From Mesodorylaimus sp. YZB2_4 (Eukaryota; Nematoda; Enoplea; Dorylaimida; Dorylaimidae): a DNA stretch of 64,000 bases. A program made the position numbers and the translations under genes. Positions 7,134 to 58,773 of this stretch are shown in pieces. The notes beneath the pieces were generated by a model that saw only the letters and a list, made by a program, of their open reading frames with translations, did no database searches and was not told the origin of the DNA. The stretch spans positions 1 through 64,000 of the forward strand of contig JASANH010000712.1 of NCBI GenBank assembly GCA_030248295.1. Direction: 5' to 3'. Positions within the stretch are counted from its first letter, which is position 1. Each line of letters begins with the position of its first letter.

Positions 7134-8396
7134 GCCGTGAAATCTTCTTCAAATATCCAGGCGTCGTCTTCGGGACCGTATCCTTGGAATCGAACCAAAT
7201 ATTGCTTTTTCCCGTCTTTGCCTTTACGTTGGCGAATAACTTTTTCAATTCCATACTCTGTCGGCGCTGGCACCTTTTGCAATTCTGGTTCGTAAAAAGC
7301 CCCTGAAAAGAGACTTGTGTTTTAAAGATGAGATTATTAGCCACTCAAATCACCTTTGAGCAGGCGTCCTCTGTGATCCTTGACGCGGTACTGTATTTGG
7401 TCTCGATAGGCTAGAACACTATGGATCTGATAAACTTGAAAACTCCACTGCACATCGTAACCCTTATGACCAACGACGGGTCTCTGCATCGATATTCTGA
7501 CATAGTCATCGACTGCATATTTCGGTTCGTGTGGGACAGTGTCAGTCATTGGGTACATCCTTTCTCGAATGACGTCGGCATCGGCGTCAGTGACGTCGGC
7601 TGGTGCCATCCCAATCGTTCTATGATAGGACCGGTTGTATGACTCAACCAAAGGTTGCAACACATCAATGTATCGTTTGGTCTTTCGATCCAGTAGATAG
7701 CGCATCAGCATTGACTTGAATGTTCTTTGAACCTATGACAACGCGTTTTCTGAACAAGTTGAAACATGCTTCACACTCTTACCCTCTCTACTGTAGATGC
7801 CTTCTTTTCTGAATAAGTAGAATAGTGACGAAGAATACCCAAAGTTTTATAGAGCTTTTTCATTCTTGAATTGTAAAATTCAGTCTGAAAATGTCCATAT
7901 GCACGTAAAGTTTTTGAAAAGTTTAGTAAACTCACTCCCTTGTCCGTATGAAGATGCAACGGTCGACTCTTTGGGTCGCTGTACACTTTCACAAATGCAT
8001 CATGCATCGTATCACTACCTAAAATAAAGGAAATTTAAATTGGCAGAAACAATTTGGAGTTTAAACCTCACTTTTATTTTTGAGCGGGATTACTGTAAGT
8101 ACTTTTAAAAATAAATCAATAATGAAAAGTAAAAACTTGTATCCATCGTTATCATCTTTATAAATTGACAAGTCGGAAAGATCAGCTTCATGAATTTCAT
8201 TGACTTTGTGAACATAAATTCGGTTGGTTGGAAATTTCAAACGGGGTGGTTTAGTCAGTTGATACGACTCTTGAGTCGTGAGGAAATCAGCCGCACGTTT
8301 ACGAGTTTAGCCTGACACAGCACGTGCAAGTTTGGCTTGGCCACCAAATGCACCTTTTGAATCTGGTGTTTTATACACATTCTCCAACTCTTCCAT
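7130..8396 (-). pseudogene. Polinton integrase (rve DDE core plus chromodomain), five exons
   Basis: A retroviral-type integrase that would insert the element's DNA. Five exons are visible on the minus strand: 8396-8072, 8018-7936, 7884-7783, 7732-7354 and 7302-7130, with four introns of 50-53 nt. Exon 1 holds the N-terminal helical region and the first catalytic Asp in EADLSDLS. Exon 2 ends with the second Asp (HTDKG). Exon 3 ends with the catalytic Glu in ASTVER. Exon 4 carries the SYNRSYHRTIGMAP block, and exon 5 encodes a C-terminal chromodomain (EKVIRQRKGKDGKKQYLVRF, then a GYGPEDDAW phrase). A TAA lies in exon 1 after an AVSG phrase (near 8306). The chromodomain is read in a frame different from the longest open frame there, supported by the splice sites. 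Confidence 0.85.
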
Positions 8397-36447: not shown

Positions 36448-37841
36448 TTGGGTCTGTGGACCCAAGAGTTCGACCAACTACGGGTTAAAGCTTTTGATCG
36501 CGAGGAAGTAAGGAAGAGGTTAATGAAAACGCATTGGAGGGACCTGGCAACTGACCAGTTAACATTAACAATGGCCAAGTTGATGCAGAAAAACTCGGCT
36601 GAGAGTAGGACAATTTATCCGATCCGTGGGGAGGATGGGACCTTGTACGAAGACCGCCTGGAAGTCATACAGGAAATAAGAAGGCAGTACGCGTGTTTGT
36701 TTACTAGTACAGGATCGATTGACGGGGAGGCCGCTGATCGCTTCTTGGGACAGCCTCCTTACTGCTTGGCAGATGACGAAGACAGGGAGGAACTAGGCAA
36801 GGAGATTGACGAAGAGGAAGTACGGACTGCGATGAGCAAATTCAAGAAAAAGAAGTCGCCAGGCAGCGACGGCCTGCCAATCGAATTTAACAGTCTTTTC
36901 TCGGCTGACATGGGATGGATACTGAGTAAGGTTTACGGGGCCTCATTAAGGCTGGGCGCCCTCCCTCCTAGCTGCTACTTCGGCATTATTTCGCAACTGT
37001 ACAAGGGGGAAGGGGATAAGGCGGAAAGGTCTAACTGGCGGCCACTGACAATGTGGACTATAAGATTCTGGCAAAAGTTCTAGTCATGAGACTGAGGAAA
37101 GTGATGGGAAAGGTGGTCCATCCAGACCAGAATTGCTCGGTGCCTGGAAAAGACATAAGAGACGGGGTCTAGACCCTCTACAATGCTGTAGAGTACATCA
37201 GTGAGACTGGTGCGGAAGGAATGCTTCTTTCTGTGGACCATATGGCAGCCTTCGACATAGTCGAATGGGAATATATGGACAGAGTACTCGAATACTTTGG
37301 GCTAGGACCAGTCTTCCAAAACTGGATTCGACTGATCTATAAACTGGGGAGGGTCTCATCAGCGGTGCAGGTGAATAAATTCATCTCATCTCCCTTTACT
37401 CCAATCAGAGGAGTCCGGCAGGGGTGCTCTTTGTCGGCCTTATTGTACGTGCTCGTCTCAGAGACAGTCAGCAATTCCATTAATGGGGACAAAGCTGTGA
37501 AAGGATTAGACATATTGGGACAGGAGCTAAAAATCAGCAATTTTGCTGATGATACCAACTTTTTGGTGGCGGATCCTGCCTCTATCAAACGCATTTTTGA
37601 AGTGTACAAAACATTTAGGGATGCCTCGGGCGCCACGCTAAAAGAGTCAAAAACCAAAATTTTACCACTAGGTGCGACAGCAGCGAACAGGAGGGGGATG
37701 GAGGAGGATCTGTCCAAGTATTTGGTCCAGCAGTTAAAAGTGTATGGACAGTCTCGACTGAAAGCAAAACTTCGAAATCGGAAACGCCTACGACGACGAT
37801 ATTCAGAACGAGTCGCGAAATCTATTGCAATATCTGGTTAG
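36448..37841 (+). pseudogene. LINE reverse transcriptase fragment (L1/Tx1-like)
   Basis: Reverse transcriptase of a non-LTR element. The first frame (to 37083) has KKKSPGSDGLPIEF and SNWRPLT. After a frameshift near 37052 the frame continues with VHPDQNCSVPGKDI, meets TAG near 37168, then SVDHMAAFDIVEW (catalytic Asp region), GVRQGCSLSALLY and ISNFADDTNF, where the active-site box is FADD. The element lacks both an N-terminal endonuclease and most of the sequence after the fingers/palm, so it is truncated at both ends. The PDQ-x-C-SVPG phrase suggests the L1/Tx1 group. Confidence 0.85.
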
Positions 37842-41540: not shown

Positions 41541-42415
41541 TTATTGTGAACCGGGCCCTGTTTTCGTTCTGTATGTTGTAAGCCGGGCTCTGCTGGTTTC
41601 AATCGCAGGAGTTTTGGCGGGGACAACTCTAGGTAAACTATAGTTTCAGGCTCACTTTAAAATAGATATTTCCATGCTGATATCAGGCTTCTTAACTTTC
41701 GAGATCTCGATTCTTGCTTAGCGCTTTTAAAAAAAGATTTTATCTAAAACGAAAAATTTTGATTCTTTCCAAGTGAACACAAATTTTCCTGGAAATCAAG
41801 TTGAGAAATCTTGATTTTTTTCAAGTGTGCGCGAAAATTCACCTAAGAATCTAAACAAATCCTGATTTTTTTCGAATTTTCAAGTTCATTAAAATTTTAT
41901 TTAAGATTTCAAATTTTCTTGAAAAAAAAATCAAGTTTTCAAGATTTTTGAGATAACTCGATTTTGGCGGTTGTAGCTTTCCGTAGTTTCGAGCAACTTG
42001 AATTTTTTTCCGTAAACTTGATTTATTTTCAACAAACTCGATTACTTTTTGAACAAACTTGATTGAATTTCAAAAAAATTTGATTACGTTCCGAACATAT
42101 TGATTTCGCTCAAATTTTGAGGGGGGAAGCAAAATTCGAAAAATCCAATCTTGAAAAAATTCAAGTTGCAATTTTGAAAAGATTCAAGTTCATCTTGAAA
42201 AAAATCAAGATGAATCTGGATTACCAAATTGGTGATCTTGATTTCAATCAAGTTGGTCAGAGTGAACCCACAAACCAACTTGAAAAAATCAAGATCCATT
42301 TCGATTAAATTCGAGTTGGAAATATCCGAAACTCAATTTTACCATCCGTTCTACTTTTATGACCAATTGCCAATATGTCTGCAAGCACCCGCCAGATACA
42401 CTGAATGAAGTTTCA

Positions 42416-43860
42416 CATGCCTCGACTGTGTATATTGCTGCCTCGGAGGCTGCTGATGCACCGTAAAGCCAGTTGTAAGCTACGGAAGGTGTGCGCGGGC
42501 CGCCTCGCCGATTTCCGTCAATTCCGTTATTTTCCTCTCGATTGATCGGATTATTCACTTGATCGAGGTAAGCATGATCGCATCTTGTAGAGAAAATTTT
42601 TCTCTATCTCGTGGTGTAAGAATTATTTGGGTTTTTTGATATTTGCGAGCTATGAAAATTTTCGAAGTTTTGATCTTACGTGCATGGCATTTTCATTTAG
42701 TCCCCGATCTGTGAAAAACGTTTCTAAAATTCCGCAAATGGTTTTAAAACATTCCCGCACCATTAAAATATGTAAAATTATTCGGGCTTTAGAATTTCTG
42801 TTGCTAGGTTTCATGTTATTTCTGATTAAATAAGAGGCGTTTTTTTGGTGCTTTTTAGGCATGGTCGCGAGGCAGTTCATGTAATATTGTCGACAGAGTC
42901 TGCATAGAAAAGGAATCTTTGTGTCATCAACAGTCGTCTATCATCTCTCATCGACAGGCCGAATACGGCGAGTCAGGTAAATGCAGTCTGTTATCGTACA
43001 TGTATACGGTTTTACAGAATAGGCGGCTAGGCTACTGTATAACATTCAGCAGGCCTGAATCAAGCTGTTGAGCTTTCATGTTGAGGTAGGGACAACGATC
43101 ATACTGCAGGTGCAAATTTACGAAACGGTGCAATCAAGATTTGTAGTATATTCAGGAGTTGTTCAGAATAAGGCCAGTCCAACGATGTATTTACCAGTCC
43201 CGGTATAAACGCATTGTCGTCACAGGCAATTGAAGATGGCTTACTTTTCCCACAATATCGAGTCGACTTTTCAACTGGCGGTAGTCTGTTTCTCCAGAAC
43301 CCAACTTCCCTAAAAAGGCGCTCAATAATAAATACCATCTAATAGCCCGACAGTAAAATGGAAATTAGTGCGTATTATTTTGGGAGGGGGCATAAATACT
43401 ATGACCTTGGCAATCGATATACAATGACCTTGGCAATCGATATACAAGTACTTTTACACTCAGGTATGGGCCTACCTAATATACGCAAGCCAAAGGCCAT
43501 GCACTTCTACTTTACTCACGGAATCGAGCCCCAAATTATTGTGGGCACAGTGTGATTACGAAAGGCGCGACGAGTTTTCCGTTCACAACTTAGGCCAGCC
43601 ATGCGTCATTACACCACGGAAAACGACGTGAGCCTCTGCTGTACGCTTATCTACAAATTTGTGCTCCCCCTGCTTGTTATTATCAAGTCAAAACAAGACT
43701 GCAATATTGCACTATTCGCAGACATGTACCTCTGAACGGGTAAGAAGCAAATGTACCTGAGAATCTCAAGCGGCGACTGAGCCTAGCGGCACCAAGCGGC
43801 GCCTAGCGGCAAGCGGCTTTTAGAGTGACCCCGCTTTGGCTCGATCCATATTATTTGAAC
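42416..43860. other. Spacer without a supportable gene
   Basis: Short open frames only. A 20-bp direct repeat around ATGACCTTGGCAATCGATATACA occurs at about 43400-43445. I see no domain. Confidence 0.45.
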
Positions 43861-44270
43861 TGGCGGGTGCCTGCAGACAAATTGGCAATTTGTCGTAAAA
43901 GTAGAGCGGATGGTAAAATTGAGTTTCGGATATCTTCAACTTGAATTTAATCAAGATGGATCTTGATTTTTTCAAGTTGGTTTGTGGGTTCACTTTGACC
44001 ATCTCGATTGAAATCAAGATCACCAATTTGGTAGTCAAGATTCATCTTGATTTTTTCAAGATGAACTTGAATCTTTTCAAGATTGCAACTTGAATTTTTT
44101 CAAGATTGAATTTTTTGAATTTTGCCCCCACCCCTCTAAATTTAAGCGAAATCAAGATGTTCGGAACGTAATCAAGTTTTTTCGGAATTCAATCAAGTTT
44201 GTTTTAAAAGTAATCAAGTTTGTTGAAAATAAATCAAGTTTACGCAAAAATATTCAAGTTGCTCGAAACA
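43861..44270 (+). repeat. Third partial copy of the 727-bp terminal repeat
   Basis: It begins TGGCGGGTGCCTGCAGACAA and follows the left arm of the 38097 element in the same orientation, with substitutions. It ends near 44270. Confidence 0.75.
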
Positions 44271-46780: not shown

Positions 46781-47056
46781 GTGTCTTCATTTTCTGAAGC
46801 TTACCGAATACTTCTGGGTGATAGTGGGTATCCTCTGAAGCCATATTTGATGGTTCCCCAGGCAGCAGGACAGGTCAAAGCTCATTGTAAGACTAGGTGC
46901 GCTGTTGAAAGATGCATTTGTGTTTTAAAAAGTCGATGGCATTGTTTGCATGTGAGGTCAAAGTTGAGATTTCGTTCGACTGCTAAATGTTGCAAGCTCA
47001 TGTGCGCTTGCTGCGTGCTGCACAACATCGCTAGAGCCAATAGCTTTGATATTTGA
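46781..47056 (+). pseudogene. Harbinger transposase (DDE_Tnp_4), C-terminal fragment
   Basis: About 91 codons with LLGDSGYPLKPYLMVP (second catalytic Asp) and CAVERCICVLKSRWHCL (catalytic Glu), then CKLMCACCVLHNI. About two thirds of the transposase, including the first Asp, are missing. Confidence 0.82.
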
Positions 47057-47328
47057 GCGATGATTTTTTTTCCCAACTCGCAAACCGTCCTCTGATTGTG
47101 CGAAACAGCATTGACAGCGTCAGCGATCTCGCGCCATGCCGCAGCAAACTTCCTCTTGAAATTGTCCGTTTCAGATGGATTATCGAACAGTTGTTTGTGC
47201 TCCTTGTACGCCCGCAATAATGCTTCTTTTTCAGCCGAATTAAAATTTGGTCGTCCTTTCTGCGCCATCGAGGCGTTTCCCTCATGTGGTTTCGCTACTT
47301 TTTTCGAAGATGTACTTATCGACGCCAT
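47050..47328 (-). CDS. Harbinger Myb/SANT-like DNA-binding protein
   Basis: A frame beginning MASISTSS, with KGRPNFNSAEKEALLRAY and WREIADAVNAV followed by a conserved basic helix (RTVCELGKK). This is the SANT/MADF-like trihelix of Harbinger accessory proteins, which help the transposase enter the nucleus and bind termini. The open frame continues into the transposase antisense (to 46882), and that tail is doubtful. The DNA-binding part appears intact. Confidence 0.7.
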
Positions 47329-48045
47329 TTCCGCAGGTCTGATCAAAGAATAATCACTTTACAGGACATTTAGTTGACAAATCTTACGAATTTTCGAATA
47401 GTAATGGGTGCTCGGCTTGCTCCCCGCTTTTAGTTTTGTGGTCTGACAAGTGTCCGAAGTCACCTATTTTTCATTGTGACACAAGAAATGTCATGTCCTA
47501 AGATGCGCCCAAATCTACAGATAAGACACCTCTAGGACAGCTGTTATGAAACGTCCTAAATTGTTGTCTCAGCGCTGTCCCAAGTTGCCGTCCTAAGTAG
47601 TGTCCTAAATTCGTACCTGTCCCAAACTTAGGACCGCATTGTGAAACTGCCCCCAGCTCAATTCCAGGCAGGCCTAAGCGCAATGCCGCACTCGAGCGAC
47701 TGGCAAGGTTTTGCTTGAGAAATTGCAATAATAAGGGCAGGTACTGGGGCATAGCTGGCCTGGATGGTGTTATAGGGTGGGAAGCCGACTTTACAGTAAG
47801 CTTGTGTGCTAGCAAGTACAGTTGCTTGCGTACAAAATACGCATACGCAAAGTTTGCGTTTACGCATTGAAATTTAGATGCGTTTACGCATACGCATACG
47901 CATTCTAACCAGTGTGCGCATGTACGCATACGCAAACTGGCTTGTACGCAATACACGCAGCTTGAGCTAAAGAATAAATTATTGCGCATTTTTTTCGAAC
48001 AATGGCGACGATAGATAGGGGCAATGTGCTAACATACTCTCAATC

Positions 48046-48200
48046 CGTATTAGCAAAAATTCATGAAATGAAACTAGTAAAAGTAGTACATGTGCCCTGA
48101 TGCGCCATCGGAGCAGGCCAGTCCAAACCGACAAAAGGTGATCAAGAAAGATCCTGCCTGGCTCTAGCTAGTCACATGCACTCGCGGTTTTGGGGTTGAC
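48046..48200 (+). repeat. Diverged copy of the 206-bp repeat at 14579
   Basis: It begins TTAGCAAAAATTCATGAAATGAAAC, as do 14583, 18999 and the inverted copy at 21147. It keeps GTAGTACATGTG, ATCCTGCCTGG and GTCACATGCACTCG-like blocks. It abuts the truncated Ty3/gypsy pol. Confidence 0.7.
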
Positions 48201-48228
48201 AAGTAGACCATAACATCTAGCCTAATTT

Positions 48229-50880
48229 ATGTCACCCGCTTGGGGGAGGTGGCTCCTAGGAAATGCTCACATCTGCAGCTCTTTTATGTGGATATTTCAG
48301 GGGGATTACACCCTTAGCATAACCCATGCCAAAGGGTGTAATAATGGAGCCGCCAATTGTCTATCTCGTCTGCCTGCAGCTGATGCAGTGCTATTTGCGG
48401 CACTATCACCGAAGCAGCATTGCCTCGAATGTGGCCCTGCCACCCTTTTGGCTTTAGTCCCGTTGGTTGGCTCTGCCGATTCTGATTCCGGGTTCTCCGA
48501 TGGGGAACCTGCTCCTGATTCGACGACTACCAACAGAAATGTAGTTCTTGCCTCACAGTCACCACAGGTTCGATTTTCTGCTCCAATGGATACAGAACCC
48601 GATGTATCGCCTTCTAATATCCAAGAAATTTTGCCTGTACCTTTACCCGAGAATTGGTTGGACAATTTCGTCAATCTGACCGATTCATCCAGTCTTGGTA
48701 CAATTGCGGAGCAAAACGAATTCGTCGATCCTGATGGTATGTTCTGTGACTATGCCGATGCTATCGCCGATGCTCAGCATGTGCCTGGTGCTCATGTTTG
48801 GCTTACCGACTCGACTCTAGATGGTAATAATGACGCCTCTCTAGAGCTGGGTGTGCAACCGGATGTAAACCTATCCGATGATTCCGATTCCGAGTGCGAT
48901 TTGGAATTGATCGATGAGTTGGATCCGACGGATCAAGTGGAATCCGACAAATTAGGCATCGACGTCAAACAACTTGCGTCCGACGCGATTTCTGATGCCT
49001 CGTCTCGGCAGACATTACTAAAGTTACAACATGACGATCCCGAACTGTCATCGATCATAGCGTATTTGGATGGTGATCTCAACCAACCGCAGAAAATCGC
49101 CAAGCTCGCCCAGGACTATCTTCTGGACGAAGATGGTGTCCTGAATCACCGATTGAATCATGCGGGTGAGTTAGTTGAGGGTAAGCACATTCATGATCGT
49201 GTGGTTATTCCTCCTGACTTACGCCAATTTATATTCGATGCTGCCCATCGGGATGCTAATCACCCTGGGTTTGAGAGATTATTTTCAGCACTTCGTTGTA
49301 AGTTCTTTTGGTCGACGATGCGTCGTGATCTACGCCGATGGTGTGCCGAGTGTAGCACCTGCGCCCGCTACAAAGCGCCTCATCGATACGAGCGCCCGCC
49401 GATGGAAATCATCAAGCGGACGGCACCTTTCGACACCATTGCGATTAATGTTCAAGGTCCTTCCCCGATCTCTGAACATGGCAATCGTTTCGTCGTCGTG
49501 ATCATGTGCATCTTCAGCAAATGGGCTGAAGCTCATGCAGTGCCTGATCAGAAAGCCGCTAGGATTGCGCGATTGCTAGTAGACGGTTGGATTACCCGTC
49601 ATGGGTCTCCACGCATTCTACTTAGTGATCGTGGCTCCAATTTCCTTTCAAAGCTGGTCTTAAGGCTTTGCAAGGACCTGGGAGTGAAGAAAGTATCGAC
49701 TACTCCGTATCATCCTCAGTGCAATGGCAACGTTGAAAACCTGAACAAATTGATCAGGTTTTCAATGGCTTCCTATGTGTTACCCGATCAGAAGAATTGG
49801 GATAACCGATTGCAACTGATTATGATGCATTATCGACACACACCGCATACAACAACTGGTGTTTCGCCTTACCTTATGTGTCATGGCCGTGATATGCCGA
49901 CGACACTCGACTCCCTATTATCTCGACCTCAGTCCGCGCCAGAATCTGGTACGGATTATGTGGATCAAGTTCGTCTCCATATGGCTACGATCGATGCACG
50001 CGTTCGTCAAAGCATCGAATTGAATCAATTGCGTCAGAAATTGCGATATGATAAGAAGTCCCACCCGCTTTCGTTGAAAGTCGGTGATTGGGTACGGAAA
50101 CCCAATTACCATTTTCAACCAGGGATGTCTAGGAAATTGAGCCTTCATTGGTTAGGTCCATATGAAGTGGTCAAAATTCTAGGCGAATCTGGCGTCTTGA
50201 TTCGCAATTTGCAAGATACATCGAAGCCTTTGGAACGATGGCATCCACAGCATTTGGTCCGAACTACAGAGCGCTTGGAAGGTCATGTGCCTCTCCAAGA
50301 CGTCTCCGATGCGCCTATGGAATCTGCTCCGACACAGGATGGTATTTCACCTGATGCATCTACCAATCCTGGTGCTCCTGCGTCTCAACGTGGTCCTTTT
50401 CGAGTTGGTCAATACGTCTGGGCCAAGGTCACTGGCTTCCCCTGGTGGCCAGCACGAATCCAAGGCTATGGTCCAGACAGCGCTCATGACGATCCGACCA
50501 AACCGGCTGTCAAGAAGGCCCTCACTGACTCGTTGAAACGAATCAATACCGAGCAGGTTTATTGTGTTTATTTTTTCGTCGATGAGGACAAATATGCCTA
50601 TATCCGTGAGTCAGGTATAAAAGATTTTGAGACTAATCTGGTGTACTTTCAGAAGAAGCTCAAAATCAAGTCGTACTTGCCTCGACGTCACCATCCAAAG
50701 AAAGGTCGTTTGAAACTCGCAATTTGCGAAGTTTTGAAACGGATTGAAGAAGCGAAGTTGGCATCTTCCCAGCCTGCAACGAGTGTTGAGGAAGATCCGC
50801 CGAAGACACCTATCAATTGGTTCACATGGTCTCCAAGCATGACTCCCTCAGGAGAGCTTCTTGGAAAACGGTGGTATTAG
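48229..50880 (+). CDS. Ty3/gypsy RNase H tail, integrase and PWWP domain
   Basis: An intact 883-codon frame from the 3' end of a Ty3/gypsy pol gene. Residues about 24-50 are the end of RNase H (HAKGCNNGAANCLSRLP). An Asp/Ser-rich linker of unusual length follows. The integrase HHCC zinc finger is at about 320-380 (CAECSTC at its end). The DDE core runs about 400-565, with D467 (LLSDRGSNF) and E503 (NGNVENLNK). The first acid is replaced by Asn407 (IAINVQGP). A GPY/F-type strand (HWLGPYEVVKIL) lies near 640. A PWWP domain at about 722-830 starts VGQYVWAKVTGFPWWPARI, with PWWP itself at 738-741. PWWP domains bind DNA and histone H3 methylated at Lys36. Reverse transcriptase and gag are missing 5'. 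The chosen ATG is only the first in frame. Confidence 0.88.
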   Translation: MSPAWGRWLLGNAHICSSFMWIFQGDYTLSITHAKGCNNGAANCLSRLPAADAVLFAALSPKQHCLECGPATLLALVPLVGSADSDSGFSDGEPAPDSTTTNRNVVLASQSPQVRFSAPMDTEPDVSPSNIQEILPVPLPENWLDNFVNLTDSSSLGTIAEQNEFVDPDGMFCDYADAIADAQHVPGAHVWLTDSTLDGNNDASLELGVQPDVNLSDDSDSECDLELIDELDPTDQVESDKLGIDVKQLASDAISDASSRQTLLKLQHDDPELSSIIAYLDGDLNQPQKIAKLAQDYLLDEDGVLNHRLNHAGELVEGKHIHDRVVIPPDLRQFIFDAAHRDANHPGFERLFSALRCKFFWSTMRRDLRRWCAECSTCARYKAPHRYERPPMEIIKRTAPFDTIAINVQGPSPISEHGNRFVVVIMCIFSKWAEAHAVPDQKAARIARLLVDGWITRHGSPRILLSDRGSNFLSKLVLRLCKDLGVKKVSTTPYHPQCNGNVENLNKLIRFSMASYVLPDQKNWDNRLQLIMMHYRHTPHTTTGVSPYLMCHGRDMPTTLDSLLSRPQSAPESGTDYVDQVRLHMATIDARVRQSIELNQLRQKLRYDKKSHPLSLKVGDWVRKPNYHFQPGMSRKLSLHWLGPYEVVKILGESGVLIRNLQDTSKPLERWHPQHLVRTTERLEGHVPLQDVSDAPMESAPTQDGISPDASTNPGAPASQRGPFRVGQYVWAKVTGFPWWPARIQGYGPDSAHDDPTKPAVKKALTDSLKRINTEQVYCVYFFVDEDKYAYIRESGIKDFETNLVYFQKKLKIKSYLPRRHHPKKGRLKLAICEVLKRIEEAKLASSQPATSVEEDPPKTPINWFTWSPSMTPSGELLGKRWY

Positions 50881-51266
50881 AATACACGTAACGTACTTAA
50901 TGGTTCTATCTCATTTGAATTTGCCGCGCTTGCGCATCTTCTCAATGAGACACGTCGTCTGCGCCGCTTATGTCAAGATGACCCTAAGTGTGCGCGTGGA
51001 ATTCCCCAGGGAAAACAACAGGCCCTAGGCACTGGAAACCACGCCACTCGTGTTTTGTTTTCGATTGGCGTTGGGTAGTTTTGTTTTTCGAAGTGCCTTT
51101 TAGCTTTAGTTTTGTTTTCTTCCAAAGATTTTTGATTCCTAAATCTCTTTATTTGTGGCATTTATTTTGATTGCTCAAGGTTTTTGAATCTCAAAAATTC
51201 GGGTTTAATTTTACGGGTGGCCTGATTAAAATGTTTTAGGAAAGGCCCCCGCCTTCTACGTCTCCT

Positions 51267-54200
51267 ATGGATGAGACGCCGGGTAGTATCACTATTGATA
51301 CTACCGGCCAACAGATTTCGACGGTCTCGCCTCCAGTGTCTGGTCCATCCGCACCAGCGCCTGGACATGGACCCGGCGATTCGTATTTGTTCTTGATGGC
51401 TGAAAATCAAGCGGCATTCCGTGAATTGGACCGACAGATTCGTGAGCAAGAATCGTTGGTCCACGATCTCGACAGAAAAACGATGGCGGCTGCGGTGTTC
51501 ACCGCCACAGTGGTTCCGGACACGTCATTACAACGACGGAACATTTTGGCGCAGCAAAACGAACGTAAGTTACGTGATATTAGTTCCCATTTGGGTGAGG
51601 TAGCCGAAAAGGCGCCCATCTCTCAAGCGATGGTTACCGATCGGACGGTGCGTGCTGAATTGTACCACGCATTGGCCTGCATAGCCTTGCCAAATACGTT
51701 GGCTTTTCAGCAATTGCACGCTTGCTACAACCGTGTTTATAAGTCATCCAGTATTCCCGGGTGATGGGTCTACTGTGACGTTTATCGGGCATTCTACGTC
51801 GATCGATGACATATACGCCGCATTCGATCGACTTTCCAATTTTTCGGCTACGTCGGGTGCAGTTAGTGTTTATGTGGTGGGTAAAAGCTGGTTCACCACG
51901 GGACGTCCAGGCCTGAATCAAACGCGTCCCGACGACTTTACATATGCGTTCGACAACATCATGACGAATAGCGAGATTGTGGTGATGGCTTCACCCGAAG
52001 ATATCAATCGCATCGATGCAACCGACACAGACGCAGCGATGGACAAGCTGGTTGGCCTGGTGGCTGGCGCTTTTTTCTACACGATGGAGGCCGAATTGCT
52101 GGAAGACAAGGTGGTCACTGCTTGCGCGCCCTACCATCCAGTGAAGTATCCCTCGAGTTTGGATCTATTGGGTCGAATGTTCCCCTCTAGACCAATCTCG
52201 TTGGCCTACTTCATTGTGATTGCTGCGAAAAATGGCGACACCATTATCATCGACACGCAGAGCTGCGGAGTGAATCCCATCTATCGTCTACCATTGATGT
52301 CGCTATTACTCAACGATGGTATCGGTAAGATCTTTTGGGACTATGAGTCGTTGTGCATGCTGGAACATACTTTGTTCCTTCGTCCCAATATGATTCAGAA
52401 TTTAGCGTACTTGTACGACGTGTGGTCGTTAGGTCAGACGTATGGTAGGCCCACGACCAAGAAGGCATTCCACGCGTCGTTCGCATACCAGTTATCGCAA
52501 TTATTCCATCAAAAGCTGGAATCGCCGCCGAACACGCTTGATGGTGCATTGAATGCGATATTCCCCTGCACCCAGCGGCCCCCGGCAATGGCGATTTCTA
52601 GTTCTTTGAACGATTCGCCCAATTTACAGGACGATTTGGAGCGATGCTTGGCCGCACATGGTTTGGCGGTCATCGACTTTTGCATCGCCACAGTGGTCCT
52701 GCACGATCTGTGGTATTTGTCACAGCAAGGTCCGCCACTTTGGTTCTCAGCTCAGGTTTGGCAAGAGGTGATGACTGTCCCTATGCCACCTGCCTTGGTC
52801 GACGCCGCAAAACGAGTTCCGGATGCATTACCTGACTGCCGGTTCTGCACACATACTAGGTGCTATTATGCTTTCGTCGACGATTCTTAAATCGAACACG
52901 ACCCATCCAAAGTTTCGGATCAGCACGTGCGTCTCGTTTCTGAGTACACCATTGCGCGCTGGAAATTGTCAGAATTGGTTGAACGACGCCGTTTATTATG
53001 CGACTCCTAGGGATCGCGATATTTCCCGACGCCTGGCATTCCATCTACAAGTCCACCGGGACTCGCCGCCAGTTCTGCATCTGCCACTGCGCCTGCAGCA
53101 CGGTCGAGCGTACCCGAGCCCTCGGGGATCCCGGGTGACGTATTGGCGTCGATCAAAGAAAACTTGCAAATTCAATCGCAACGCCCCGATGTCGCGGCCA
53201 AGGATCCAACCTTCTTTAAGCCCAACTCGCAGCAGTATCGACAGAAATTGGAACGGTTCGTCGCATACGTGCATCTGGCTGGGTTCCTATGGAACAGGGT
53301 TCCCACTCAACGGTACATCTCTTGGGAAACGAGTCGTCGTGCAGCCTACAGTACATTTGATCGGGCCACAGGTCATATTTTGGATCGTCCTTTGCGTCCC
53401 TCGCCAGAGTTGTATGCCCAGGTTCGTTGGCTCCCTGAGTCTCTGAACCGGGGTGCGCTCTCCTTGCGAGATGCGATTACATTGACGACACCTGGTTTTC
53501 CAGTTAAGGAACTGGCGGAAACCACTTCGCCTTTATTCCCGCTGGATGATATGCCGATATCCGAACGATTGATGCCTGTCCCAGTGTACCAACTGGACGA
53601 AGCTTACCTCTCGTTTCGTGATTTTCCAATTACGCCTGGATCTGTGGCTCGCTGGTGCTGCGACATGTGGAAGTACCAGTGTTGCCAATACCTCACGGTG
53701 CTGCAGGCCCAGGAGCCTTGGAATCGAAACCCTCGACTCCTGTTGGCTGCCGCCTTGGAATTAATCGGATTGCATTTGTGGTCCTTGTTTTACAGCGTGG
53801 AGAAATACGATCCCCAGCGAGATCTCCCTCTGAGTATCGTGGAGATGACGGCCGCATCTGGGGACTTTATTTCATTCGTTCGAAATTCGTTCTATCGAAT
53901 CACGGAAGCGGAATACCGTAAGTTAGTTGAGGGGAATGAGGATGGGCAACGTTTCAGCTTTTGGCCCTCCCCGGATGGGAAATGTGCGATGTTGGTTCCA
54001 TGCAACAAGCACCAAATCACATCGCTGGTCTGTCAACATCGATCGAGGCTGATGGCGGGATACAGTGTCTCCCGCCTGGCTATCGTTTTGGGATTTTCAT
54101 TGCCGGACTGTTCTGGTTCGGTTTACTATCATCCGATTGGTTTGGATAGGCCTGAGACTGTGTCGTCCTCACTAATCTTTCTTAAGTATTTAGCCAATGT

Positions 54201-55833
54201 CTACACGAACGGGTATTTCGATCGGTTCGTCGGCGTCCTGCAGCAAGATCCTGAGAAGCCTGGATCGACCATTCCGATTCCAGTTGCTCTCCGAATGTGG
54301 CGCCGAATGCGTGACGTCTATCGATCGCCTGGAACTGCGCCAGTCTTGCAGCTCTTCTCGACGCTCCATGAGTCCGCCTACGCCTGCCCACAAGATTACC
54401 CTACCTTGGTGCGTCCAGTACGGGCCAGGTCGAGTGCTGGGTCAGCATCGGGTATGGAGGAAGGTGAGATCCCGTCGGGCACAGAGAGTGGGAGTGCGAG
54501 GAAACATGCCCATCGTCGTCCCCGATCAACATTTTGGGCTGGACATTCATTAGCCCATCGAGATGATTTGCCGCCACCACCTCCTCCTGGGAGTGGTGCT
54601 GCTGGCGCCTCATCTGGCACCGCATCTCGATTGCGTTCCGTATTTTATTCGTCATCGTCACGTTCTGGCACAGCTTCGTCTACTCCGCGTACCTCAAGCT
54701 CAACGTCGGGCCAGAAGCATTCTGGGTTGCCGTCTGTTTCTGAAGAACCCGAAGGTACGCCGGTTTCTGGATACACCTACACGAAGGTGTCTGGGGAACA
54801 GCTCGTTGTCGACTACTCTCGTGCGAGCGACCCTTGGTCTGGTATGGATACGACTTCGCCTGCGCCTCCGGTATCCGCCCTGACGCCTACTGTGAGCGCG
54901 CCCTCTCTGACGCCGTCTCGTCAAGTGGCTGCTGTCTCGCCCACGCCGGGTGAGCGGGACTCCAATCAACCGAATGCTGTTTCGACACCTCCCACAGCCA
55001 CGCCAGTCACGCCTGTGGTAGCCCTGACAGCTTGCACGGCGAATGTGGTCACCACCCCGCGTTGGTCCGTCTCGCCTCGTCGAATGGCTCGTCACGGTTC
55101 GCCAGGTAGGTCCTCTGGATCGCGCAGCCGTGTGCCCTCTAAGGATCTTCCCAACAAGCCATTGTGTTGGAGCCAGGATGCGTTCTTGGCTCGGCTGATT
55201 GATCCTATTCGCGAGGTCAAGGTTCCACCACGGATTGAAGATTTCCCGTTCATCCCGTTTGAATACCCCGTATATCCATCGCTGGATTGGCCTGCGTATA
55301 CTTTCGTCATCGCTTCTGAATCCAAAGCGGACTGGGTGGACGAGCTCTATTATGCGTTGCCTTCGATCATTCGGTTTACCTGTCCTCGAACGGGCATCTT
55401 TTGGTATGTTTTGTATTATCCGATTAAGCGAATTGATAAGACCTTCGTCTTGTACCTACGAGACCTTGGTCCTGGTGGTCCGAATGTCCGTTGGGTGGTT
55501 TTGGACTACTTGACGGATGAGAAATGGAATTCGGCTGCAGAGTGGATCGAATCGCGATTTGCTCATCGTTTTATTTGCCGCCGCATGGCATGGAAGGCCC
55601 GACTGCAGTCGCTGGACTCTCTCGAGCTGGAAATGTTCTTTCCTGATGCATTTTCTGGTGGTACGCCTTTTGGGCGAACTGGTCATACCCCGATTATTGA
55701 ATACGGACGAGTTGTTGGCTCTCGTCCCATGGATCCGACTAGTCTCAGCAGTATGGGCACTCGTCCTTCTACTGCTCCGCCTATTCCGCCTCATTTGCAA
55801 TGGGTTAATCAAGAGGAGAAGCTGGATTGGTAG
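51267..55833 (+). pseudogene. Third reading frame of the Ty3/gypsy element, unknown function
   Basis: One long protein of about 1,500 codons is implied. Frame 1 (51267-51764) carries a coiled-coil segment (RELDRQIREQESLVHDLDRK). A shift at about 51740-51764 leads to a frame open to TAA at 52888-52890, then in the same frame to TAG near 53011, then to 55833. The 52020-52800 part resembles a DEDD 3'-5' exonuclease fold of RNase D/EXD type (IIIDTQ, LLNDGIGKIFWDYESLCML), with catalytic acids mostly absent. The middle (53140-54400) is unrecognised. About 54400-55130 is Ser/Pro/Gly-rich, and the end is aromatic-rich. There is no membrane segment, so it is not an envelope gene. Base composition and codon use match the pol frame upstream. 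Confidence 0.6.
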
Positions 55834-56690
55834 GTGATGCCTCTCCAAGCTCCTCCAGTGGTATTTTTGCGACGGTTTTCGGTTTTGTTTGTTTTGGGTT
55901 TCGACTAATTTTCATTATTTTGCGTCATTGCGTCGATTGTGCCTTGTTGTGCCCAGTCCTCTATACAGGGTGTTTAGAGGTCTGCCAAGGTTTCTGATTA
56001 AGGGTGTCTCTTAGATTCCCTTGCTACGCCGTGCTTGTTGCCTTTGATCTCTTGCGGTTTGCAGGATGTTGCCTACCGCCTGAGGTCGCACGCTGGAGTG
56101 CCCTCTAGCTGCCTTTGGTGGGTGCTAGGTCCTCAAGGCGTCTGGACTCCTTCGGTGGTTTCCGGACTGCTCCCCTTCCCTACTACATCAGTATTCTTTC
56201 AGCACTGTCAAGAGAAGCTCCAGTGATCACCCGTTTACAACGTAGCATAGGACCACCACTACGCCGGTTAGATGAGTACGGTTCGTACGTGTGATTTCTT
56301 TGTGAACCGGTGATATCAGTGCGTGGGTTAGGACACCCGGGTGAGAGAGCTTATCGTGCTATTGGGGGAGCATTGTGCCTTGTGGTTTTGGCCTTTGGTG
56401 TGCCCGGGGACTCACCCTTGCCCTGCACTCGGCGGGTCTTTACTAAGATTGGCATTCGCTTGCCTCTCTTCCCCAGGCCTTGTGGATTCTTGCGGAAGTC
56501 TCCATGTCCCTTTTGGTTTCTCGTTTGAGGGTCACCGTATTTCTGGTCCCTGTCCCTCTCTCGCTCGCCTGGATTAGCCTGATGGCTCCCTGGATCTGCC
56601 GGCATGCTTTTCCATGGGATCCCCAGAGCGGTGTGCTCCCTCTGTTCTCGTAGGACGCGTGGGGTCACGCTTTTCTGGCGATGGGAGGAA
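55834..56690. other. 3' untranslated region with polypurine tract
   Basis: GC-rich, with no supportable gene. GATGGGAGGAA (56680-56690) immediately precedes TGTAATAGG and fits a polypurine tract that primes plus-strand synthesis in LTR elements. Confidence 0.4.
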
Positions 56691-57090
56691 TGTAATAGGT
56701 GCCTTCAGTGGTTATCCTATTTGCATAAGACATCTAGTGTGCACAAGAGGCACAGCCTATTTGTCAGACATCTAGTGTGCACACGAGGCACAGACTACTT
56801 GTCTCCTTCCTCCCGGGTCAGGGCTGAGCGAGGCCAAGAGGCCGAGCTGACTGGTTTTCCTAACATGCGAGGGATTGATGGGACTAGTTCCTGGACCGCG
56901 AGCACCACCTATATAAAGGCTCTGCTCCTGGCCTGGCGAGATCAGTTCGATCAGTGAGACTCCTCGACGACCTGACGATTGTAGCTGGCTCTTCCGATCC
57001 TACGTGAGTCCCCCTAGTCCGGCGTAGTGGACGCTAGTAATAAACTATACTGGTACTTGGGCTGCGTGGCTTGATTTGAACCTCTACACC
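56691..57090 (+). repeat. LTR-like sequence (probable 3' LTR)
   Basis: It starts TGTAATAGG after a polypurine tract. Two 35-bp tandem repeats (GACATCTAGTGTGCACA...) at about 56729-56800 look like U3 enhancer units. A TATA box CTATATAAAG lies at 56918-56927 and a polyadenylation signal AATAAA at 57039-57044. The end is about ...CTCTACA at 57090. A second copy is not in the window, so the exact ends are estimates. Confidence 0.5.
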
Positions 57091-58773
57091 ATAGCGCAGT
57101 TGGTTCAGTGTACTAGCACGAGAACCCGACTGTTTCATGGTGCGTGCAACAGCCCTTCTTCGCACTCGTACCGGCGGGTTTGGGCTGATCTTACAAGCGA
57201 GTGGTCCAAGGTCTTCCATAGCCCAAGCCTGGTAGAAAGGCTTATTCCTGCAGAGTAACGATCACCAAGACCCCGATTCCTAAACAAACCCCTCAGGCGT
57301 GTATGCCGCGCCTCCCCAAGGGTGCCTGCAACTGCTCTATGCAATGTTACACCAGCCTGGCTGCGGGTCGAATGTGTAGTAGGCGTGTCTGGCCTGTGGA
57401 GAAGGTAGTGTATCTGGTTGCCTTAGCTGGCCGCCTTATGCACTGAGCAGTATGTGGTTGCCTTGACTGGCCGCCGCATACAGCGTATCAGTTGCCTTCG
57501 TTGGCCGCTCGATACGCTTCTCCAGGCGGGGCTGAAACCCGTCGGGTTGATGTCTCGGGCACCTACGACTAGGTGGAGGGTTTTTGAGTCCATCCGCTCC
57601 CTGCGGTATCTTCTCCAATGTAGGGCTATTCCGCCTATTACAAATGCACCCGGTCCTGAGATGCCTACGCTGGCGGACAGTTCCACTGTCGATGGCGCAG
57701 TAAAGTAAGTAACGTCTGTCAACACCAGAGGATCTTTTACGAAGCACAACAAAGCACGACGATGTCTCAGCCATCCTAGATCTTACCCCCAGACCAATCC
57801 GCAGACAAACCAAGTACCTGCCCTGGAGTCAACTCCTGGACTCTTCCAGTATGAACCAAAGGAAACGACGACCGCAGAGGCCCTTTGAGAGTATGCTAAT
57901 TAAAGTCCCTGGCGGGCGCCTAGCCTGCCCCACGATTCGGCCAATGGGGGTGGACAACACGAAAGGGGTGGCTCCCCGCAAATTCAGAACAAAACAGATG
58001 GAACCGAATCGAGCGAAAAACAAGCAAGGGAGAGCCGATCTCTCCTGGCGGCCTGCACAAATACCGCCCTGGCTCCTCCTAACCGAGCCAACTGCCCAAG
58101 CCACACCCTCAGGAATCTCAGGCGCCCCCAAGCGGCAATGGTCACAACAGGCTCTTATGTTAATCGGGAATTTGTTGCTCGGTTTGACGAGAATGCCAGC
58201 TCTTGTGAGAATTCAGAGAAGCAGTAGTCTTGGAACAGCGGAAGATATCACATTGGACAGGCATACTGGATTGAAGACAGGACCGCACACACGACCGTAC
58301 AAAAGCAATCAGGGAATGCTCAATGGCGTCTATTGGTCATGCAAAGTTCTTTTCAGCTCCAGGTGGGTCAAATTCGGTATGAGTCATCACATTGGACTCC
58401 TATTGGTCGGTGCGTGATGATGAGTCATCCACCATGTAGCCATGCTATCAAACAAGTCCGAACATGTCGCTGACGTCATATCCTCGTGATATGTGATGTC
58501 ATAGGTTTATTGTGTCACTCACGGGTCAACAAGCGTGATTTATCAGTTACGTTAGTATGGCCAATCGGTAAAGGTAGGATGACTCATTTGTAGCGGAGGC
58601 TTAGCCAGCAACTGGTCTGTCAGCCAGAGTATTCCATTGCTTCGAGACAGCTCCGATTCAACTTTACGTCACTGTTGTGTATCTCTTGGAAGGTATGTAC
58701 ATAATGCGTGCAGTGCCTGTGCTTGTGTGTCTAGTCCGATAGCCAGGACTACTGTATGCTCACTTTACTGCAG
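57091..58773. other. Downstream region without a recognised gene
   Basis: It holds an A-box-like TAGCGCAGTTGG at 57092-57103 without a matching B box at the right distance, repeated GGCCGCC words near 57420-57500 and several long but featureless frames. Direct copies of an ATTGG-type segment lie near 58340 and 58390. I cannot support a gene. Confidence 0.4.

Follow-up and report, generated by a model that had tools for sequence, protein, structure and literature searches.

The genome of the nematode Mesodorylaimus sp. YZB2_4 harbors a distinct lineage of Ty3/gypsy long terminal repeat (LTR) retrotransposons in which the integrase ends in a PWWP domain, placed after the GPY/F strand, where chromoviruses carry a chromodomain. 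One copy lies in the window analyzed here, a 64,000-nt stretch of DNA comprising positions 1 to 64000 of contig C316 (JASANH010000712.1) of a 145-Mb assembly of 1067 contigs. On the + strand of this window, a single frame is open across 48226-50880 and encodes 883 aa from the ATG at 48229. The frame contains, in order, the C-terminal tail of RNase H (residues 23-49; 48295-48375), the integrase zinc finger (Integrase_H2C2, PF17921, residues 327-383; 49207-49377; E 7.9e-16), the integrase core (Pfam rve, residues 418-496; 49480-49716; E 5.2e-10), the GPY/F motif WLGPYEV (residues 641-647 with GPY at 643-645; 50149-50169), and the PWWP domain (PF00855, residues 727-812 with the PWWP tetrapeptide at 738-741; 50407-50664). 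The PWWP match scored 46.4 bits (E 5.7e-12) compared to a cutoff of 25.6, the other two Pfam matches were likewise above cutoff, and no further Pfam family was found in this open reading frame (ORF) at E ≤1. By sequence, the closest solved integrase is that of Ty3 (7q5b; E 1.6e-19 over residues 320-655), and the solved-structure relatives of the PWWP part alone are the domains of DNMT3B, NSD2, NSD3, and PWWP2B. In a search with the predicted fold, all 50 solved structures among the matches listed were PWWP proteins (the BRD1 and DNMT3 chains presumably align by their PWWP parts), and the five-stranded barrel and C-terminal helices of a PWWP domain are present in the predicted model. Profile and predicted fold thus confirm the initial annotation, made from the letters alone, which had named this frame a Ty3/gypsy integrase with a C-terminal PWWP domain.

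The window copy itself is decayed. Its sister copy, L021, is 95% identical, and homology between the two begins inside RNase H, about where the RNase H tail starts (48289 by tblastn, 48303 by blastn). Upstream of this point, the window DNA showed no match to the 5′ half of L021. A tblastn search with pol frames from seven groups of the lineage found no reverse transcriptase (RT) in the window, and no LTR-like direct repeat pair was found at 47000-58500. The first catalytic position of the DDE triad is Asn407 (49447-49449) in place of Asp, with D467 (49627-49629) and E503 (49735-49737, just beyond the Pfam rve match) kept; the Asp is present in 13 of the 13 other ORFs looked at (12 by pattern, and L024 also). 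Because it is 5′ truncated and has Asn in place of the first catalytic Asp, the window copy is judged from its sequence to be dead and is not expected to move itself; that it is an active element was ruled out on the same grounds. An intact frame running from RNase H tail to PWWP with a DDE core had been described, and this holds in part: the frame is open and the DDE core is true of the group, but the window copy lacks the 5′ half and an LTR pair and has N407.

The same architecture recurs across the genome. A PF00855 profile search, in which 150 of 173 candidates were scored, gave 146 matches, some of which may be host genes. Twenty regions around PWWP matches, picked across the ranks, were fetched, and 19 of them aligned to the window ORF by tblastn at 28-95% identity. 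By our own grouping, they form eight groups (the window with L021, and those of L027, L025, L011, L014, L023, L026, and L028), in all of which the PWWP domain is the end of the pol frame. Identity to the window over the integrase-PWWP part is 69% for L027, 59% for L025, and 30-35% for the other five groups. When 16 ORFs were scanned with Pfam, PWWP was over cutoff in 13, 12 of which also had H2C2 and rve; the three without PWWP are separate upstream ORFs. With the L014 integrase-PWWP part as query, seven copies matched at 96-100% over the full length, with L014 itself among them and a stop in one, and an eighth matched at 97% over residues 69-500. Hence, given the 19 loci and the L014 copies, it is not the case that copies elsewhere end before the PWWP part and that a host gene is fused only here. 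The sole exception among the 20 loci was L020, a mini-element without RT or integrase core.

Several copies are complete. Gag to PWWP is encoded in one frame in L011 (2153 aa), L014 (2049 aa), and L023 (1873 aa). The L023 frame contains gag, CCHC, Asp protease, RVT_1, RNase H, H2C2, and rve, each over cutoff. The same order of gag, protease, RT, RNase H, and integrase is found in L011 and L019, where gag is represented by CCHC knuckles and the protease is below cutoff, and in L014, where the Retrotrans_gag and protease matches are below cutoff; L019 is interrupted by the end of its contig. LTR-like repeat pairs were detected in 8 of the 14 copies searched; they measure 123-238 nt and are 99-100% identical. 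None was found in L017, L021, L025, L026, L027, or L028. In five of five examined, the LTRs end in TGT..ACA and are flanked by a 4-bp target duplication (TAAT for L011, ACTG for L014, AGTG for L010, CACT for L023, and CGGC for L015). By domain order, LTR ends, and duplications, the PWWP elements are Ty3/gypsy (Metaviridae) LTR retrotransposons, and some copies are young, since near-identical LTRs occur together with intact frames and 4-bp duplications.

The PWWP domain is kept by purifying selection, like the catalytic core. Two pairs of copies were informative for the ratio of nonsynonymous to synonymous substitution rates (dN/dS) in the PWWP domain, the other eight pairs being saturated or having few changes. 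In L023-L024, the ratio was 0.09 (25.2 synonymous and 11.8 nonsynonymous changes), and in L011-L018 it was 0.11 (11 and 5), compared to 0.09 and 0.14, respectively, for the integrase core. Between GPY/F and PWWP, the linker gave 0.84 in L011-L018 (4 and 11) and 0.27 in L023-L024 (2 and 2). Among the few-change pairs, the PWWP values were 0.45 for window-L021 (3 and 5), 0.82 for L023-L022 (1 and 3), 0 for L011-L019 (1 and 0), and undefined for L014-L009 (0 and 1); at very high dS, they were 0.11 for L011-L014 and 0.12 for L027-L021. The ratio was also undefined for L027-window and L025-L027. PWWP amino acids change faster than those of the enzyme in the two informative pairs and in more distant pairs. 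The truncation of the window copy and its lost catalytic residue could suggest an artefact, that is, a motif arisen by chance or the fusion of a host PWWP gene with a single dead integrase. However, the same architecture occurs in groups down to ~30% identity with intact frames and LTRs, the domain is under purifying selection, and two metagenomic proteins carry H2C2, rve, and PWWP over cutoff, so that an artefact is vanishingly improbable; the architecture shared by many copies rules it out. That this is a real, selected PWWP lineage is almost certain. The suggestion that the reader is built into the integrase polyprotein is likewise borne out by the many copies that share the architecture and by the purifying selection.

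Three further features of individual copies were seen. The L020 mini-element (L020:4810-7807, 3.0 kb) lies between two repeats (238 nt, 99%) and has a single frame in which gag is joined to GPY/F and PWWP; its left flank resembles a BEL/Pao-type element by eye. L011-type integrase copies in contigs C132, C432, C47, and C183 match L014 up to residue 371-397. For the C432 and C47 copies, no PWWP match was found nearby in the genome PF00855 search, and the domain may have been lost or cut off there. In the L014 group, the PWWP frame is followed by an extra ORF of 307-349 aa with an Arg/Ser-rich tail (L012:6840-7829, L014:7112-8158, L015:7353-8273, and L017:1915-2910, the last on the − strand), and these ORFs gave no Pfam match.

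The genome also contains relatives without the reader. In a comparison set made up of the best 150 of 691 H2C2 candidates, 50 have a same-strand PWWP match downstream (48 of them at 922-1071 nt) and 100 have none. Pfam found neither PWWP nor chromodomain at E ≤0.05 in the six longest frames of L029-L034, which represent 6 of the 100; the L029 frame breaks inside the core, and the L032 frame starts within it. Across the genome, 70 chromodomain matches were counted, all in frames of 859 aa or less. The 16 ORFs scanned gave no match to this domain at E ≤0.01, and PF00385 was absent from the 12 integrase ORFs scanned and from the window ORF, which have PWWP instead. Database relatives with PF00855 are few: 1 of 63 in one set, 0 in 120 listed of 259 in another, and 1 in 120 listed of 337 in a third. 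P0201 and P0006 are the two metagenomic proteins in which H2C2, rve, and PWWP exceed cutoff; P0006 has no RT and was placed in an unresolved tree only. As a side observation, the window holds a weak chromodomain match at 7142-7255 (−; 30.4 bits). The genome has many of this type, in frames of ~72 aa, perhaps a small family of repeats that includes part of a chromodomain.

How might such a domain act? It would be made as the final portion of pol and, provided that processing resembles that of other Ty3 elements, would stay on the integrase. There it would bind nucleosomes through DNA and, in the groups with a full aromatic cage, through a methylated histone lysine such as H3K36me2/3, and would so tether the integration complex to chosen chromatin. 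Lentiviral integrase binds a host PWWP protein, LEDGF/p75 (PSIP1), and lentiviruses reach H3K36-methylated chromatin through this borrowed protein; here, one polypeptide would do what LEDGF/p75 does for lentiviral integrase. The two systems are alike in having PWWP as a chromatin anchor for integrase, but the domain is host encoded there, whereas here the element supplies it within its own pol. We consider it probable that the PWWP domain is a built-in chromatin tether of the integrase. The chance that its action depends on H3K36 methylation falls slightly short of even, and H3K36me-guided targeting to gene bodies is a plausible hypothesis. The fuller reading, in which a chromodomain of the heterochromatin type was swapped for PWWP, the integrase reads H3K36 methylation and steers to transcribed chromatin, and groups have since shifted specificity, is put forward tentatively.

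Four sets of results weigh against the main account, a single PWWP lineage with a built-in chromatin tether. First, the predicted model has a mean pLDDT (model confidence score) of 71, with a disordered insert. Second, the methyl-lysine cage is not general. In the window, the three-aromatic cage is complete, with F737 and W740 (50437-50448), which align to the Tyr and second Trp of the NSD2 GYPWWP, and F782 (50572-50574). Only three of the 12 aligned sequences (window, L021, and L027, i.e., the window group plus L027) have the complete cage; it is incomplete in L025, L011, L018, L014, L009, L023, L024, L026, and L028. Position 1 is V in L011, I in L014, H in L023 and L026, and Q in L028, position 2 is L in L023, and position 3 is L in L025. 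The cage of the window group would allow methyl-lysine reading, and in the other groups DNA contact or another ligand may dominate. This restriction favors a different account, in which PWWP is a nonspecific DNA or nucleosome clamp that stabilizes the intasome or target capture, with neither methyl-histone specificity nor gene-body targeting. Also in its favor, the window stretch from the PWWP start is basic, with 24 K+R compared to 14 D+E in 126 residues, and binding by the PSIP1 PWWP domain is driven by nucleosomal DNA, the peptide KD (dissociation constant) being 17 mM (passages of PMC3663649). However, the window's own group retains the full cage, and the charge excess is small or absent in the corresponding stretch of L011 (13 K+R versus 12 D+E) and L028 (13 versus 15). 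The sequence is compatible with the clamp and with H3K36me reading alike, and we regard the clamp as a serious candidate, on balance doubtful. Alternatively, the domain may target another mark (e.g., H4K20me) or a protein partner independently of histones. The cage residues differ between groups as if reading different partners, and the vestigial chromodomain of Ty3 offers a precedent for a histone-independent C-terminal domain (passages of PMC8632968), but no named partner has positive support, and this alternative is unlikely.

Third, some of the trees do not firmly resolve a single origin of the domain. An integrase-core tree (65 rows) requires 4 changes of the PWWP label (3-4 in bootstraps), of which the starred branches force only one. 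In a first tree of RT, RNase H, and integrase combined (41 rows), support for a group of the nine PWWP rows is 69/93, and 72% of bootstraps contain it. With more references and P0201 added (48 rows, leaving out L009, a near-copy of L014), the combined tree placed the PWWP rows in one clade at 97/94, found in 96% of 200 bootstrap trees; a preceding quick tree gave the clade 94, with P0201 beside L023. A single capture of PWWP by the lineage is favored because the PWWP rows form one clade in the 48-row tree. This clade sits among chromodomain and reader-less elements on a weak backbone, in a tree without named chromovirus references. Since P0201, which comes from another record, clusters with the lineage, the lineage probably extends beyond this genome.

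Finally, the insertion sites do not point to genes. As a rough proxy, 427 host-gene marks (kinase, RRM, GPCR, and WD40 matches) were taken from best-match lists and merged by hand. Only 9 of 146 PWWP matches lay within 20 kb of a mark, where a uniform spread expects ~10.6%; among the reader-less integrases, it was 1 of 100. The difference between the two sets at 20 kb had a Fisher P of 0.052 (one of five distances, uncorrected), and the other distances gave 0.198-1.0. Thus, PWWP copies are not enriched near host marks, a result that also suits the clamp, and reader-less copies look more depleted. Both element sets lie in higher-numbered contigs (shorter where seen), with median contig numbers of 184.5 (PWWP) and 323 (reader-less) compared to 64 for host marks, and the two sets differed from each other with P 0.11. 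The gene-body targeting proposed in the initial annotation therefore found no backing in this rough map; standing copies reflect selection after insertion, and therefore the map neither shows nor excludes targeting. In the flanks of LTR-bounded copies, where 10 hand-picked ORFs from 7 of 8 copies were scanned without a control set, a recognizable host domain was found for three of the seven: an exon of an ionotropic glutamate receptor (ligand-binding domain, just below cutoff), with L011 ~780 nt upstream of it; a frame with a ubiquitin domain, ~0.8 kb from L010; and an exon of GST, 1.8 kb from L024.

An early view of how retrotransposons select sites by reading chromatin came from chromodomain integrases. 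A chromatin reader at the C terminus of a Ty3/gypsy element is thus already known; what is new here is a different reader. The PWWP elements resemble chromoviruses in the order of gag, protease, RT, RNase H, and integrase, in the GPY/F strand, and in having a Royal-family small barrel at the integrase C terminus, and chromodomain proteins are among the database relatives listed for them. They differ in that the terminal domain is PWWP rather than a chromodomain and in that the PWWP rows form their own clade. The Royal family includes both domains (passages of PMC3119473). Ty3, the source of the closest solved integrase, also has a reader-type domain at its C terminus, a vestigial chromodomain that helps to position integration via TFIIIB without histones, its sites being Pol III genes (passages of PMC8632968); such targeting was not seen here, and it was not looked for. 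Other retrotransposons have captured chromatin-related domains too, but the domains and elements are different: cytosine methyltransferases (passages of PMC5890265, in which the word PWWP does not occur) and, judging by a title cited in PMC11244446, a methyl-CpG-binding domain in an arthropod retrotransposon. In Ginger DNA transposons, a Gypsy-type integrase is followed by PHD, Ulp1, or OTU (passages of PMC2836005). No PWWP-bearing Ty3/gypsy element was found by title or start of abstract among the papers listed from an open-access library, a scope outside which bioRxiv and most subscription journals lie, and to this extent the novelty claimed for the lineage stands. The lineage would offer a natural experiment on whether targeting is set by the reader alone, the Ty3 elements with PWWP and those without a reader coexisting in one genome as an internal control. 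It would further provide a natural counterpart to the PWWP tether supplied to lentiviral integrase by LEDGF, and such elements may choose landing sites by direct chromatin reading.

By alignment to L021, the 3′ part of the window element after pol extends over 50881-57137 (+). The window DNA to 50929 and at 55530-57137 aligns to L021 at 92-97%, and 50930-55529, which covers two ORFs and most of a third, is missing from L021. The three ORFs 3′ of the integrase (51267-51764, 51733-52890, and 53011-55833, within 51240-55833, +) gave no Pfam match. They probably belong to the element because the L021 sequence resumes within the third ORF. The second resembles RNase D by eye only, and a solved-structure search with the downstream ORF 51685-52887 returned nothing at E ≤1.

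Elsewhere in the window, an RVT_1 reverse transcriptase fragment at 37173-37838 (+; E 2.9e-17) was missed by tblastn with the seven PWWP pol frames, and nested inverted repeats lie at 41986-44269, with arms of 83-197 nt that are 88-93% complementary and ~1.5-2 kb apart. The genome also has two differing copies of 18S rRNA, of which L039 (C791) looks normal and like that of a nematode, perhaps of Dorylaimia, and L038 (C162) looks degenerate.
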